DNA of 40,832 nucleotides. Origin: Clostridiales bacterium (GTDB lineage: Bacteria; Bacillota; Clostridia; Caldicoprobacterales; UBA3941). Location of the stretch: NCBI GenBank assembly GCA_012735575.1, contig JAAYGY010000032.1, positions 1 to 40,832 of the forward strand, in the 5' to 3' direction. A program made the translations under genes and the position numbers. Numbering within the stretch: the first letter of the stretch is position 1; every line of letters begins with the position of its first letter. Below are positions 15,498 through 40,575 of the stretch, one piece after another. The notes beneath the pieces are model-generated. The model saw nothing but the letters and a program-made list of their open reading frames with translations. It did no database searches and was not told the origin of the DNA.

Positions 15498-15536
15498 CTC
15501 TGTAAAAAATAATAATAAAAATTATAAAAAAAGTTG

Positions 15537-15565
15537 TTGACAAAATTATTTAGGGATGCTATTAT
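15537..15565 (+). promoter_or_regulatory. Strong SigA-type promoter for the ilv-leu leader
   Basis: A consensus TTGACA (15537-15542) and TATTAT (15560-15565) are separated by exactly 17 bases. Transcription would begin near 15572, giving a leader of about 560 bases that contains first the unassigned RNA and then the Leu T-box. No better promoter was found between that RNA and the T-box. Confidence 0.75.
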
Positions 15566-15593
15566 ATTTAGCAAATCCAAAAATCGGATGAAT

Positions 15594-15689
15594 CAGAAGA
15601 AGGAATACATAGGCGAAAGCTTAACGAAACATCAAGGGTGATAAAGACCCGGCGGCAGGTTTCTTCTGAAGAAGGGGTCTGTTGTCGGG
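15594..15689 (+). promoter_or_regulatory. Unassigned structured leader RNA with two mutually exclusive folds (riboswitch-like)
   Basis: Fold A is a three-way junction. P1 is eight Watson-Crick pairs (CAGAAGAA 15594-15601 with TTCTTCTG 15661-15668). P2 is AGGC-GAAA-GCTT (15611-15622) with a GNRA loop. P3 is GGGT/ACCC (15636-15650). Fold B is a hairpin of 19 uninterrupted pairs, 15648-15666 with 15671-15689, closed by a TGAA loop; seven of its pairs are G-U, which only make sense in RNA. Fold B uses the 3' strand of P1 and of P3, so the two folds exclude each other. Fold B is followed by ATTATTATAA, not a clean T tract. I could not match it to any riboswitch class I know. Confidence 0.55.
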
Positions 15690-15813
15690 CATTATTATAA
15701 CCTATATGTATAAAAAAACTAATAAAATTAGTAAATATACATCTTATATAGAAATTTAACTTGTAATATAGCTACTAGTTATAAAGAAATTGATAGAATG
15801 GAAAATGGCTTTA

Positions 15814-16085
15814 GCATAAATTCGATGACGGAGAAAGAAGATCCATCACGGCTATCTTCAGTGAGCCGGTGGGTAGTGCGAACCGGCGGGCGGTTGGATT
15901 GTATGCTCACTCCCGAGATGCAAGCTTGAAAGAGACTATATCTCAATTAGAGCTTGACGTGAGGTCACGTTACAGACCAGGGTTTGATAGAACCTGTGGA
16001 GGCCTGTGCCGTGAGGTACAGATAAAGCTGGGTGGTACCGCGAAAGTAACCTTTCGCCCCTGCAAAAGGGGTGGAAGGTTTTTTT
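15814..16085 (+). promoter_or_regulatory. T-box leader, Leu (CTC) specifier, upstream of ilvB
   Basis: Stem I is closed by GCAT (15814-15817) with ATGC (15918-15921), then CGGAG with CTCCCG. The specifier loop reads TATG-CTC-A, giving a Leu codon at 15906-15908 followed by the usual A. The distal loop elements (CAGTGAGCCGG, GGGTAGTGCGAACCGGC) and a stem III hairpin (ACGTGA/TCACGT) follow. The T-box bulge GGGTGGTACCGCG is at 16030-16042. The terminator (AACCTTTCGCCCC pairing with GGGGTGGAAGGTT, 16048-16080, then T7) overlaps the antiterminator. Uncharged tRNA-Leu should permit read-through into the ilv-leu operon. The same codon is used by the B. subtilis ilv-leu leader. Confidence 0.9.
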
Positions 16086-17771
16086 ATATATTTTTTTGTT
16101 TATTGTAGCACGGTAGGAGGTGTAGGAAAGCAATGAAGATGACAGGAGCAGAGGCAGTAGTTAGGGCTTTAGAGTTGGAAGGAGCAGACCTGATATTCGG
16201 ATATCCCGGTGGAGCTGTTACACATATATACGATGCACTTCATAGATCAGATATTCATCACGTACTAGTCCGCAATGAACAGGCTGCTGCCCATGCAGCC
16301 AATGGATATGCCCGTGTTACCGGCAAGGTAGGAGTATGTATAGCAACGTCCGGTCCCGGCGCCACCAACATGATAACGGGAATTGCAACGGCTTATATGG
16401 ATTCCATCCCCATGGTGGCCATTACCGGCCAGGTCCCCTTATCCATGGTGGGCAGGGATGTCTTTCAGGAGGCTGACATCACTGGTGCAACAGAGCCTTT
16501 TACAAAATACAGTTATCTGGTAAAGGATGTTAATGATATACCCCGTATTTTTAAAGAAGCTTTTTATCTGGCATCCACAGGCCGTCCCGGCCCTGTCCTT
16601 ATCGATATACCCAAGGATATATCTATGGCTACATTAGATTTTAAATATCCTGATCAGGTAAAGTTAAGGGGTTATAAGCCCACATATGAAGGGCATCCGG
16701 GTCAGATTAAGAGGATGGCAAAAGCTATCTTAGAGAGCAGCCGGCCGGTAATATGCATAGGCGGCGGTGCTATTTCCAGCAACGCAACCCCTGAGATAAT
16801 TGAGCTGGCCGAAACCATAAAGGCGCCTGTGGCATCTACCCTGATGGGGATAGGAGCCTTTCCAGGAGATCATGAACTATCTCTGGGATTTTTAGGGCAG
16901 CACGGGGTTTATGCAGCCAATAGAGCAGTATCTGAAGCCGATCTTCTAATCCTCTTAGGTGCCAGGATGGGAGATAGGGCTACTGGCAAGACTCAGGAGT
17001 TTGCACAAAGAGCCAAGGTAATTCATATGGACATCGATCCGGCTGAAATAGGTAAAAACGTAGAGATAGACATTCCCATTGTAGGGGACATAAAAACAAC
17101 TCTGAAAGAACTGCTAAAGAAAAATATTAGCAGGCAGGATTGGGGCTGGCTGTCTACAGTCAAGAAGTGGAAGGCAAAAACTGAAGGTGTAGGCCACTGT
17201 ACTCAAGGGCTTAACCCCATGGAAATTATAAAGATGTTGTCGGATATGGTACCAGAAGATACCGTACTGGTTACAGATGTAGGTCAGCATCAGATGTGGG
17301 CAGCAAGATATTACAAGACCAGAAAGCCCAGAACCTTTTTAACATCAGGTGGTTTAGGTACCATGGGCTATGGATTGCCGGCCGCATTGGGGGCAAAGCT
17401 TGGATGTAGGGATAAGGAAGTAATCCTTATAGTTGGAGACGGAGGGTTTCAGATGAGCCTTGGGGAGCTTGCCACCATAGTCCAGGAAAGGGCTGAGGTA
17501 AAGATAATGATATTCAACAACGGCTATTTGGGCATGGTTAGGGAGATTCAGCAGCAACTTCATGAGGAAAGATACTATCAAACTGCTATGCAAGGCAACC
17601 CGGATTTTGTAAAGCTGGCTCATGCCTACGGTATCAAATCCTTTAGGGTGGAAAAGGAGGAAAACATTTTAGAGGGCATTAGGCAGCTTCTGGAATACAA
17701 AGGCCCCATTATAGGAGAGTTTGTTATAGATCCTACCGCAAATGTAATTCCTGTTTCGAGGAGGGATAATG

Positions 17772-19284
<1,513 letters not shown>

Positions 19285-25665: not shown

Positions 25666-26565
25666 GTGCAAAGTGTCAGGTACAGAAGGGTGACTAAACA
25701 ACGAAGGCGGTATAGAATTAACAGAAAAAGGTTTTATCCCTTCCTTTCCCTTCTTATTATATTCGTGGTTTTAGTCATCCTAAATAAAATCCAGCAAGAT
25801 GGCTTTTATAATAGGTACAGCCTGGCTGAAATAGACCCCCAGCATTTGGAGATGTACTTTGATGTGGAGGCAGCCCATGGGGTGCCTTGGTACTACCTGA
25901 TGGCTATAGATAAAGCCGAAGGGATACCCAGGGAAGAGATTAGTCCGGGTAGAGCTGAACAGTTGGCCCTTCACCTAAGGGGGATAAGCTCTTTAAAGGA
26001 GCTGGGAGAGAAGCTTAAGGATTATAACAATGATTCTGCTTTTATAAAAAAAGTTGAGCATGAAGTAAAAAGCCTTCGGTATATCAACAAGGTCTATGAG
26101 GGCAAGATCTTTCCAGTAGCCGGAGATCATTATGACTACTCCAATGATTTTGGGGATGGAAGAAGCTACGGCGGAGATCGGCGACATGAAGGTATAGATA
26201 TCATGTGTGATATGGAAACTCCTTTGCTTGCAGTGTGCGATGGTGTGGTAGAGAAAAAAGGTTGGTTGGAGCTGGGTGGATGGCGTATTGGAATAAGGGG
26301 AGATGATGGCATCTACTATTATTATGCCCATCTTTCCAAGTATGAAGATGGTTTGGAGGAAGGGAACAGGGTCCGAAAAGGCCAGGTTATAGGCTATGCC
26401 GGAGATAGTGGATATGGTGAGGAAGGAACTACCGGGCAGTTTGATCCTCATCTGCATTTTGGAATGTATGAAAAAGACAGCTGGTCCGGCACAGGAGAAA
26501 AGGCCATAAACCCATATCCTTTTTTAAAAGCCTGGGAGAGAAATTCCAGTGTGGATACTAATTAG
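25666..26565 (+). CDS. M23 family peptidase (LytM-type), membrane anchored
   Basis: A 299-residue predicted cell-wall endopeptidase. An Arg/Lys-rich N-terminus (RYRRVTKQRRRYRINRKRF) precedes one membrane helix, giving an N-in topology with the catalytic domain outside. A helical linker follows. The LytM domain runs from about residue 150 to the end, with the zinc ligands in RRHEGIDIM (HxxxD) and DPHLHFG (HxH). The active-site YAHLSKY and the GNRVRKGQVIGYAGDSG strand are also visible. M23 enzymes cut peptidoglycan cross-links, and spore-formation members exist. GTG 25666 is chosen over GTG 25657 because AAGGTG ends eight bases before it. Its position inside an amino acid operon is odd. Confidence 0.88.
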   Translation: MQSVRYRRVTKQRRRYRINRKRFYPFLSLLIIFVVLVILNKIQQDGFYNRYSLAEIDPQHLEMYFDVEAAHGVPWYYLMAIDKAEGIPREEISPGRAEQLALHLRGISSLKELGEKLKDYNNDSAFIKKVEHEVKSLRYINKVYEGKIFPVAGDHYDYSNDFGDGRSYGGDRRHEGIDIMCDMETPLLAVCDGVVEKKGWLELGGWRIGIRGDDGIYYYYAHLSKYEDGLEEGNRVRKGQVIGYAGDSGYGEEGTTGQFDPHLHFGMYEKDSWSGTGEKAINPYPFLKAWERNSSVDTN

Positions 26566-26586
26566 ATATAAATGGAGGTAATAATC

Positions 26587-27177
26587 ATGGATATCATGGA
26601 TATTATCAAGGGAAGAAGGACCATCCGTAAATACAAGCAGGACAGGATAGACAGAGCTATCCTGACAGATTTGATCGATGGAGCAAGACTTGCTCCTTCG
26701 GCTGCCAATCTACAGCCTTTAGAATATATAGTGGTAGACCAGCCAGATTTATTGGATCAGGTCTTTGACACCCTTTCCTGGGCAGGATATATAGCTCCCC
26801 ATGGTAATCCCAAGGAAGGAGAAAAACCTGTTGCCTACATAATTGTATTGGTAACGGGCAAGTCGGGGGCCTTTACAGGTCATGATGTTGGAGCAGCGGT
26901 TCAAAATATTCTTTTAGGGGCCTGGAGCTATGGGATCGGCAGCTGTTGGTTCGGGTCTGTAAAGCGGGATAAGTTGGCGCAGGCATTGGATATTAGTGAT
27001 GATGTAAAGATAGATTCAGTTATAGCCCTTGGGTACCCTGCAGAAAAATCTGTATGGGAAGAAGAACAGGGCAGTATAAAATACTACAAGGATAAAGACA
27101 ATGTCCTCCACGTTCCAAAGCGGAAGTTGAGTGATATATGTCATTGGAATGGAGGGAAAACTGTTGATAAGCGATAG
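26587..27177 (+). CDS. Nitroreductase family protein
   Basis: A 196-residue FMN-dependent oxidoreductase of the nitroreductase superfamily. The FMN-binding start [26 protein letters not shown] and the dimer/FMN helix [24 protein letters not shown] are visible, and the chain ends with ALGYPAEK. Members use NAD(P)H to reduce nitro compounds, quinones or flavins; the natural substrate is unknown. GGAGG at 26574-26578 sits eight bases before ATG 26587; the upstream in-frame ATG at 26572 overlaps that site and is rejected. It lies between an M23 peptidase gene and ilvD and overlaps ilvD by 14 bases. Confidence 0.9.
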
Positions 27178-38555: not shown

Positions 38556-38624
38556 ATCTAATAATTATATCGTGCATAAATATACATTAAAAGCTATGAG
38601 GGGAAGAGTAGGAATTATCAGTTT

Positions 38625-38861
38625 AGGTTACAGAGAGTCGACGGTTGGTGCAAGTCGATACCTACGATTATTCTGAAGATCATCCCGGAGCTGTCAACCT
38701 GAAATCTTTTGAGTAGGGTTGATCGGAAAGGGCCCGTTACAGCTCGGAGGTATAAGCCTGATGGCCGTACCTTGCTGAGGCCATTACTGCAAAGTAATGG
38801 TGAAATTGGGTGGTACCACGAAGTATAACCTTTCGTCCCAGATACGGATGAAAGGTTTTTT
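38625..38861 (+). promoter_or_regulatory. T-box leader, Ile (ATC) specifier, upstream of ilvB copy 2
   Basis: Stem I is closed by AGGTT-CAG (38625-38633) with CTG-AACCT (38691-38700) and contains GGTTGGTGCAAGTCGATACC. The specifier loop reads TGAAG-ATC-A, giving an Ile codon at 38679-38681. The T-box motif GGGTGGTACCACG is at 38808-38820. The terminator stem AACCTTTC-GTCC pairs with GGAT-GAAAGGTT (38827-38857) and is followed by T6. The antiterminator competes with this stem. Uncharged tRNA-Ile should allow expression of ilvB copy 2 alone. Confidence 0.88.
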
Positions 38862-38904: not shown

Positions 38905-40575
38905 ATGAAGTTAACAGGTGCACAAGTGCTGGTAGAATGTCTAAGAGAACAGGGCGTTGATACTATTTTTGGCTATCCAGGGGGAGCGGTGCTGCCAATC
39001 TACGATGCTCTATACGATGTTAAGGACATAAGACATATTTTAACTGCTCATGAACAAGGTGCAACCCATGCAGCAGATGGATATGCCAGAGCAACAGGGA
39101 AGGTAGGGGTAGTAATAGTTACCTCAGGGCCTGGAGCTACCAATACTGTAACGGGTATTGCCACTGCATACATGGATTCAGTACCAATTGTAGTATTTAC
39201 AGGGCAGGTAGCTAATTCATTGATAGGAAAGGATTCCTTTCAGGAGGTAGATATAACAGGAGTAACCAATCCCATAACCAAGCATAACTATATTGTAAAG
39301 GACGCAGATCAACTGCCACATATTATCAGGCAGGCCTTTAGTATAGCCAGATCAGGGCGGCCAGGGCCTGTGTTAGTAGATATTCCAAAGGATGTCCAAA
39401 CAACGGTTATAGACTACTATCCTGAGAAAGCAGATATTAATGGGGAAAAGGCTGTAAACCAGCAGGATCAATTGGACTATGACAGTATAAACAGGTCTAT
39501 AGAGGCAATAAACCAAAGTGAAAGGCCTGTTATATATGCAGGCGGTGGAGTAAATATAGCTGGTGCCAATGATAAGCTTGTTGAGTTTGCAGAGAGGATA
39601 AAGTCTCCTGTGAGCTGTTCCCTTATGGGAATGGGAGCATTTCCAGGAAACCATCCCTACTACATGGGGATGGTAGGTATGCATGGTACCAGGTATTCAA
39701 ACTATGCTTTTTCAAACTGTGATCTTATTATAGCTATGGGAGCAAGATTCAGCGACAGGGTGGTAAGCAATGTAGAAAAATTTGCGCCAAAGGCCAGGAT
39801 CATCCATGTGGATATAGATCCAGCAGAGCTAGGAAAAAATGTGGAAACTTATATAGAGGTATGTGGAGATGTAGGCCAGATACTAGACATTTTTAATGAA
39901 AAAGTAAAAGAGAAAAAGGAAAATGGCTGGAACAGACAGATTGAAGAATGGAAAAAGGCTTATCCTTTAAATTACAAGACTAATGGAAATCTAAGTCCCC
40001 AGTATATCATTGAAAAGCTGTACCAACTGACAAAAGGGCAGGCAATACTGTCCACAGAGGTAGGTCAGAACCAGATGTGGGCTGCCCAGTTTTATAAATT
40101 CTCTCAACCCAGGACCTTTATATCTTCAGGAGGACTGGGTACCATGGGATATGGGTTAGGTGCTTCTATAGGTGCTGCCCTTGGCAGACAGGATAAGAAG
40201 GTTATCAATGTAGCTGGTGACGGCAGCTTTAAGATGAATTCTACTGAATTGGCTACAGTATCTAGGTATAAGATTCCCATTATCCAGCTGGTGCTAAACA
40301 ACCATTCATTGGGTATGGTAAGACAGTGGCAGGATCTTTTCTTCAGCAAGAGATTTTCCCACAGTGAGCTGGGGCAGGATGTGGATTTTGTAAAGCTGGC
40401 TGCGGCTTATGGTATAAAAGCCTTCAGTATAAATCACAATGATCAGGTAGAAAGTGTTCTTAGTCATGCCCTTGAATCAAATGAGCCGGTACTAATTAAT
40501 TGTGAGATTCATCCTGATGACAAAGTATATCCCATTGTACCTCCAGGTGCAGGTATTGATGAGTTGATTGATTAA
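38905..40575 (+). CDS. ilvB: Acetolactate synthase large subunit, copy 2 (Ile T-box controlled)
   Basis: A second 556-residue ThDP-dependent AHAS catalytic subunit. It has IFGYPGGAVLPIYDAL, catalytic E50 (HEQGATHAADGYAR), VTSGPGATN, an FAD-domain region and the ThDP motif from AGDGSFKMNSTELA to LNNHSLGMVRQWQ. Trp475 in GMVRQWQ is retained, the residue that gives 2-ketobutyrate preference in E. coli AHAS II. GAGGAGG lies eight bases before the ATG. The terminator at 40598 closes the unit with no small subunit after it, so it may share the IlvN encoded with copy 1. It could be called ilvB2; the anabolic assignment rests on motifs and T-box context. Confidence 0.94.
   Translation: MKLTGAQVLVECLREQGVDTIFGYPGGAVLPIYDALYDVKDIRHILTAHEQGATHAADGYARATGKVGVVIVTSGPGATNTVTGIATAYMDSVPIVVFTGQVANSLIGKDSFQEVDITGVTNPITKHNYIVKDADQLPHIIRQAFSIARSGRPGPVLVDIPKDVQTTVIDYYPEKADINGEKAVNQQDQLDYDSINRSIEAINQSERPVIYAGGGVNIAGANDKLVEFAERIKSPVSCSLMGMGAFPGNHPYYMGMVGMHGTRYSNYAFSNCDLIIAMGARFSDRVVSNVEKFAPKARIIHVDIDPAELGKNVETYIEVCGDVGQILDIFNEKVKEKKENGWNRQIEEWKKAYPLNYKTNGNLSPQYIIEKLYQLTKGQAILSTEVGQNQMWAAQFYKFSQPRTFISSGGLGTMGYGLGASIGAALGRQDKKVINVAGDGSFKMNSTELATVSRYKIPIIQLVLNNHSLGMVRQWQDLFFSKRFSHSELGQDVDFVKLAAAYGIKAFSINHNDQVESVLSHALESNEPVLINCEIHPDDKVYPIVPPGAGIDELID

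Follow-up and report, generated by a model that had tools for sequence, protein, structure and literature searches.

The question raised by this locus is what the compact RNA is that lies between a promoter and a leucine T-box at the head of an ilv-leu operon in the window, i.e., the whole stretch of 40,832 nucleotides that was analysed. A sequence-only reading had placed these three elements in series and had proposed that the RNA is an unassigned riboswitch, with which the operon would read two signals. The arrangement has been borne out by the promoter, which departs from the consensus at a single position, and by a match of the T-box to the Rfam family RF00230 (Table 1); the proposal of a second signal read by an unassigned riboswitch was not supported, as described below. 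The same promoter is found 5' of an intact aptamer in a sister genus (g3) and directly 5' of the T-box in G004. A second T-box, with the apparent specifier AUC (Ile), is located at 38587-38843 of the window, 5' of a second ilvB (38905-40575), and no ppGpp-type RNA was noticed there.

Table 1. Features of the ilv leader in the window (positions are those of the window)
Feature	Position	Strand	Remarks
Promoter TTGACA-N17-TATTAT	15537-15565	+	11 of 12 consensus positions matched
P1 5' strand CAGAAGAA	15594-15601	+	Remnant of ykkC P1 and antiterminator strand; aligned to AGAAGGAAG of intact aptamers
Remnant of P2, P3 and J3-4	15602-15635	+	Most of P2 deleted; intact ligand core absent
P4 upper stem and loop (P3 of the sequence-only reading)	15636-15650	+	GGGU 15636-15639 with ACCC 15647-15650; lower P4 pairs broken
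Terminator hairpin 5' arm	15648-15667	+	P4 3' strand, J4/1 and P1 3' strand of the old aptamer
Terminator-like hairpin CCCGG...CCGGG	15648-15689	+	19 pairs without mismatch, including seven G-U; 4-nt loop; conserved expression platform
A/U-rich tail CAUUAUUAUAA	15690-15700	+	Weak U-tract after the stem; UAUA invariant in the alignment of relatives
T-box leader (RF00230)	15816-16064	+	102.7 bits; CUC (Leu) at the specifier position, by eye
ilvB (acetolactate synthase large subunit), named after its family	16133-17803	+	First gene of the ilv-leu operon; ORF translation

The two exclusive folds that had been claimed, a three-way junction and a long hairpin, were both recovered by structure prediction. 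In the former, P1 consists of 8 bp between CAGAAGAA and UUCUUCUG (15661-15668), and P1, a GAAA-capped hairpin (about 15610-15623) and a P4-like stem are all present in the minimum free energy structure of the transcript ending at the P1 3' strand, with a P1 probability of 0.80. The latter, whose G-U content and freedom from mismatches were as had been stated, is predicted to compete with P1 through the P1 3' strand. The folding energy of the region 15566-15700, -38.4 kcal/mol, lies far below the mean of -24.8 obtained after shuffling (z = -4.39), and none of 200 shuffles did as well. As for the two parts of an intrinsic terminator, a GC-rich stem and a U-rich tract, the stem has 19 pairs and the tail approximately five U in eight. 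These results support the view that the feature belongs to the RNA level and has the layout of a riboswitch expression platform.

When the Infernal search against Rfam that had been suggested as a check was conducted for 15500-15820, only chance matches were obtained up to E 10, and no family could be assigned to the window RNA; with RF00442, the best score in the window's own genome was 16.8 bits, below the gathering score of 63. By a DNA search of relatives, the 3' half of the RNA (15636-15700) was found in many genomes of the same order, with one copy per genome, 5' of ilv genes and a T-box. In most of these relatives, GUGUACCUAGGGUUCCG...GACCGAGCGGUAC...ACACCGUGGG, which is a ykkC-class aptamer, precedes the hairpin; the match of the locus L006 to RF00442 had 49.3 bits (E 2.6e-8), under the gathering score. 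RNAalifold of 12 intact sequences gave a four-way junction P1-P2-P3-P4, as described for ppGpp aptamers (PMC10687018). Because the ilv and T-box(Leu) context is that of the tandem ppGpp/T-box(Leu) leaders already published (PMC9481103), and because the ilv-leader aptamers have a CCG-to-GGG spacing one nucleotide shorter than that of the PRPP-type RNAs in the same genomes, at the place where ppGpp aptamers are reported to be without the conserved G (PMC6031431, PMC5912903), we infer that the aptamers of the relatives are of the ppGpp rather than the PRPP type.

The sister genus (G005 and G003) has the same promoter and leader text, then an intact aptamer, and then the same hairpin and T-box, and the window RNA aligns to this aptamer from P1 to P1. 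Among the invariant aptamer positions, the window keeps four of five in the P1 5' strand, one of five in P3 and six of ten from J3-4 to the P4 loop; in P2 only 4 of 28 are kept, 22 being deleted and two more changed, while in the terminator 5' strand all 17 are kept. With R1, a covariance model built from intact aptamers, the highest score in the whole genome went to the window RNA (24.1 bits; E 0.019 genome-wide and 5.8e-6 locally), and the ilv leader of G001 scored 24.0 bits; in the R1 alignment of the window RNA, P2 is absent and P3 and lower P4 are broken. When 15594-15649 was shuffled preserving dinucleotides, no shuffle out of 1000 equalled the score of the true alignment with G005 or with G003. 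For the 45 nucleotides that are left once the P1 strand and the terminator strand common to both folds are set aside, 18 and 30 of 1000 shuffles were as good as the real comparison with the sister aptamers. Since P1 and this common strand account for most of the R1 score, and since the interior by itself surpasses shuffles only modestly, we base descent on the R1 score and on the identical position between promoter and T-box. Both by homology and by position, the window RNA fits descent from a ppGpp riboswitch (ykkC 2a).

As judged from this alignment, most of the ligand-binding P2 arm has been deleted and the base of P4 is broken, with P1, the post-P4 sequence and the terminator hairpin remaining. 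By position, sequence and fold, the RNA is a homologue of the ppGpp-type ykkC aptamer of the sister genus; the ykkC family had been set aside in the sequence-only reading because the diagnostic P2 half is deleted here. No intact ykkC-class RNA was found in the window's own genome by R1 or RF00442, and RelA/SpoT is present in it. Two other R1 matches were discarded as ilv leaders: one in G022 (17.1 bits) lies inside a coding sequence, and one in G018 (42.9 bits; L064, C184 879-993) is another ykkC-like RNA, 5' of a NUDIX-like gene.

The only other species of the window's genus at hand, G001, has a leader that decays in a different manner, part of P2 being kept and the P4 5' strand lost. Comparison of the two congeners segment by segment gave 88% identity for the promoter, 71% for the leader 5' of P1, 45% for what remains of the aptamer, 98% for the hairpin with its tail, and 64% for the spacer; the P1 strands are complementary in both. 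Concerning the three-way junction that had been drawn, P1, P4 and the post-P4 junction are inherited from the aptamer, while the GNRA-capped hairpin taken as its P2 (GAAA-capped in the window) and the J sequences are not common even to this congener. For the window, the terminator fold is predicted to differ from the P1 fold by -10.6 kcal/mol, which lies within the range of the intact relatives (-8.5 to -11.3); these are secondary-structure energies only. Because of the 98% identity against 45% and 64% in the adjoining segments, and because the hairpin is retained amid diverging flanks in the genera g5 and g8, the hairpin appears to have stayed under constraint after aptamer loss.

Within the order, an intact aptamer is present in G003 and G005 (g3), G012, G015 and G020 (g10), G025 and G026 (g16), and G014, G019, G021 and G023, and outside it in G047 and G064. 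The aptamer is truncated in the window and G001. The hairpin without aptamer, but with promoter and T-box, is found in G009, G022 and G018 (g5) and in G013 and G010 (g8); the distance from the -35 of the closest promoter to the hairpin that follows is about 51 bases in g5 and 73-80 bases in g8. Within each of these two genera the hairpin is kept while the flanks diverge, and the apical arms in g5 have changed yet still fold. Promoter and T-box alone, with the hairpin also gone, are found in G004, G007 and G028. A T-box is present in all loci of this series that were examined; G002 ends at a contig edge, and other genomes have no ilvN match or have it at a contig edge. The series shows that the aptamer goes first and that the terminator hairpin can stay. 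All four families labelled f1 to f4 include cases of aptamer loss, which means at least four loss events if the families are natural groups and their ancestor had the aptamer. Since a ppGpp synthetase domain is present in 30 of 30 genomes, loss of the ppGpp signal is not the cause.

Of 30 genomes of the order, 19 gave a hairpin match with R2 at E<=0.1, and 18 of the 19 did so at E<=5e-7, the exception being a weak match in G004; an R2 match in G248 (L132) was rejected as an unrelated symmetric terminator-like hairpin. The hairpin occurs almost only where the riboswitch was ancestral. In aptamer-bearing species its 5' arm is nearly invariant aptamer sequence, and the 3' arm adjusts to it with G-U pairs in some species and G-C pairs in others; in the aptamer-less g8 one such G has become A, making an A-U pair. 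Because the aptamer fixed the 5' strand, the seven G-U pairs of the window hairpin are explained without a new switch, and they are inherited. They had been read as a sign of selection on RNA, and the RNA level is upheld, the cause being that the 5' strand doubled as invariant aptamer sequence. Since this strand hardly varies, the covariation test of the basal 12 bp gave no excess over shuffles; basal pairing is 95%, against at most 53% in slid versions. UAUA shortly after the stem (15695-15699 in the window) is invariant in 17 of 17 rows including aptamer-less relatives, and is odd for a U-tract. Two explanations of this tail were tried and rejected: for selected pairing with the upstream A-rich tract, flank swaps between lineages gave the own flank no general advantage, and for UAUAA as a -10 element, no -35 was seen by eye at any of the customary distances, and its last T is not conserved.

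We consider it quite likely that 15594-15700 is the remains of a ppGpp (ykkC subtype 2a-like) riboswitch, which has lost ligand sensing and has kept its terminator/antiterminator part as a fixed attenuator. In intact ppGpp riboswitches, ppGpp stabilises P1 and the terminator is thereby prevented (PMC10687018). The window RNA presumably no longer senses ppGpp, and the kept hairpin, to go one step beyond its conserved sequence, is probably an attenuator of fixed strength 5' of the T-box. With the pocket gone, P1 could still fold first and delay the predicted terminator. Read-through would then be constant, the same share of polymerases always reaching the T-box, which would be the sole regulated gate left. 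Against this reading, the tail CAUUAUUAUAA is a poor U-tract for a predicted terminator, and fixed attenuation alone would be a weak reason for the near identity of the hairpin between the congeners. That the truncated RNA still weakly senses ppGpp through the remaining J3-4 and P1 is very improbable: J3-4 ACA persists, and the C that contacts the guanine of ppGpp by base pairing in the published structures would lie in it (PMC6031431; by inferred numbering), but the deletion has removed the P2 segment with G48, a residue of the published pocket, and the base of P4 no longer pairs.

A competitor of the fixed-attenuator part only, and compatible with descent, is a function of the hairpin that is independent of the aptamer (such as protecting the 5' end of the mRNA, pausing the polymerase or binding a protein) and for which it outlived the aptamer. 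Its retention in the two aptamer-less genera, the maintained fold despite altered apical arms in g5 and the invariant UAUA favour such a function, but three genomes have lost the hairpin entirely with promoter and T-box retained, and its near restriction to lineages with an ancestral riboswitch also speaks against it; we regard it as rather unlikely, though the strongest of the alternatives. The same complete losses show that the hairpin is dispensable, as expected if aptamer and hairpin were both functionless and had too little time to decay; the contrast in identity between hairpin and adjacent segments, and the conservation in g5 and g8 despite diverging flanks, make this improbable. Similarly improbable is a truncated RNA refitted as a three-way-junction aptamer that drives the old terminator with another ligand. 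P1 and both exclusive folds persist with a predicted energy balance unchanged, both congeners keep P1 while the rest decays, and ykkC aptamers switch ligand easily (PMC6031431); against these points, the capped hairpin and J sequences are absent from G001, the low identity to G001 falls on the very aptamer part, and PRPP-type ykkC RNAs of the same genome are likewise decaying or truncated. The comparison covered two species of the genus, so that a lineage-specific new ligand site may yet be present. Taken together, that the freed hairpin gained its own function or the truncated RNA became a small aptamer for another ligand seems unlikely; if true, riboswitch remains would be raw material for new leader regulators 5' of a T-box.

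Rather than a sensor of a new kind, the window RNA is most probably a worn-down remnant of the known ppGpp riboswitch, and the relatives display each step of aptamer loss, among them cases in which the hairpin survives. Accounts of how riboswitches are lost seem to be few, none having been found in a narrow literature search. With one promoter, one operon type and one T-box, every stage from an intact two-input tandem to a lone T-box is available within one order, and these natural variants are ready-made for measuring the worth of the second input.

Among known systems, the closest is the ppGpp riboswitch (ykkC 2a)/T-box(Leu) tandem, with which the window RNA shares its place in an ilv leader, 3' of the promoter and 5' of the Leu T-box, the P1 strands, upper P4, the post-P4 sequence and a terminator competing with P1. 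Unlike that riboswitch, it is without most of P2 and without the invariant CUAGGGUU and GACC-AGCG segments; the core CUAGGGUU...GACC-AGCG was not found in its P2, nor the four-way junction P1-P2-P3-P4 in its R1 alignment, the P4 base is broken and no known ligand pocket remains. The guanidine-I family RF00442, the parent Rfam family of ykkC, gives 49 to 55 bits, somewhat below gathering, with the intact RNAs of G015, G005 and G003, whereas the window RNA has no match at E 10. The PRPP riboswitch (ykkC subtype 2b), which occurs by itself or 3' of guanine aptamers, has the same parent fold as the ppGpp type, but PRPP-type RNAs have other genes, another hairpin and one extra nucleotide between CCG and GGG. 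A likeness exists in that the window's genus, too, has truncated PRPP-like RNAs, which follow guanine aptamers. In the window's own genome (C89), the purC leader (L068 1440-1640) carries a worn guanine aptamer and a PRPP-type RNA whose core is mutated (22.8 bits), whereas the purC leader of G001 has an intact PRPP-type RNA (60.1 bits). The gene after purC is preceded in both congeners (L068; L063, minus strand) by an intact guanine aptamer and then a truncated PRPP-like RNA with P1 and terminator kept; in the own genome these are the guanine aptamer (RF00167), GCGAAACTATACCTGGAGGTTCTAACCCAGTTGTGTAGGTTTCGC and the terminator at L068 2338-2510 (C89, about 26488-26660). The tandem guanine-PRPP gate has apparently been reduced to a guanine switch in both species, and the window's genus seems to shed ykkC aptamers and to keep their platforms.
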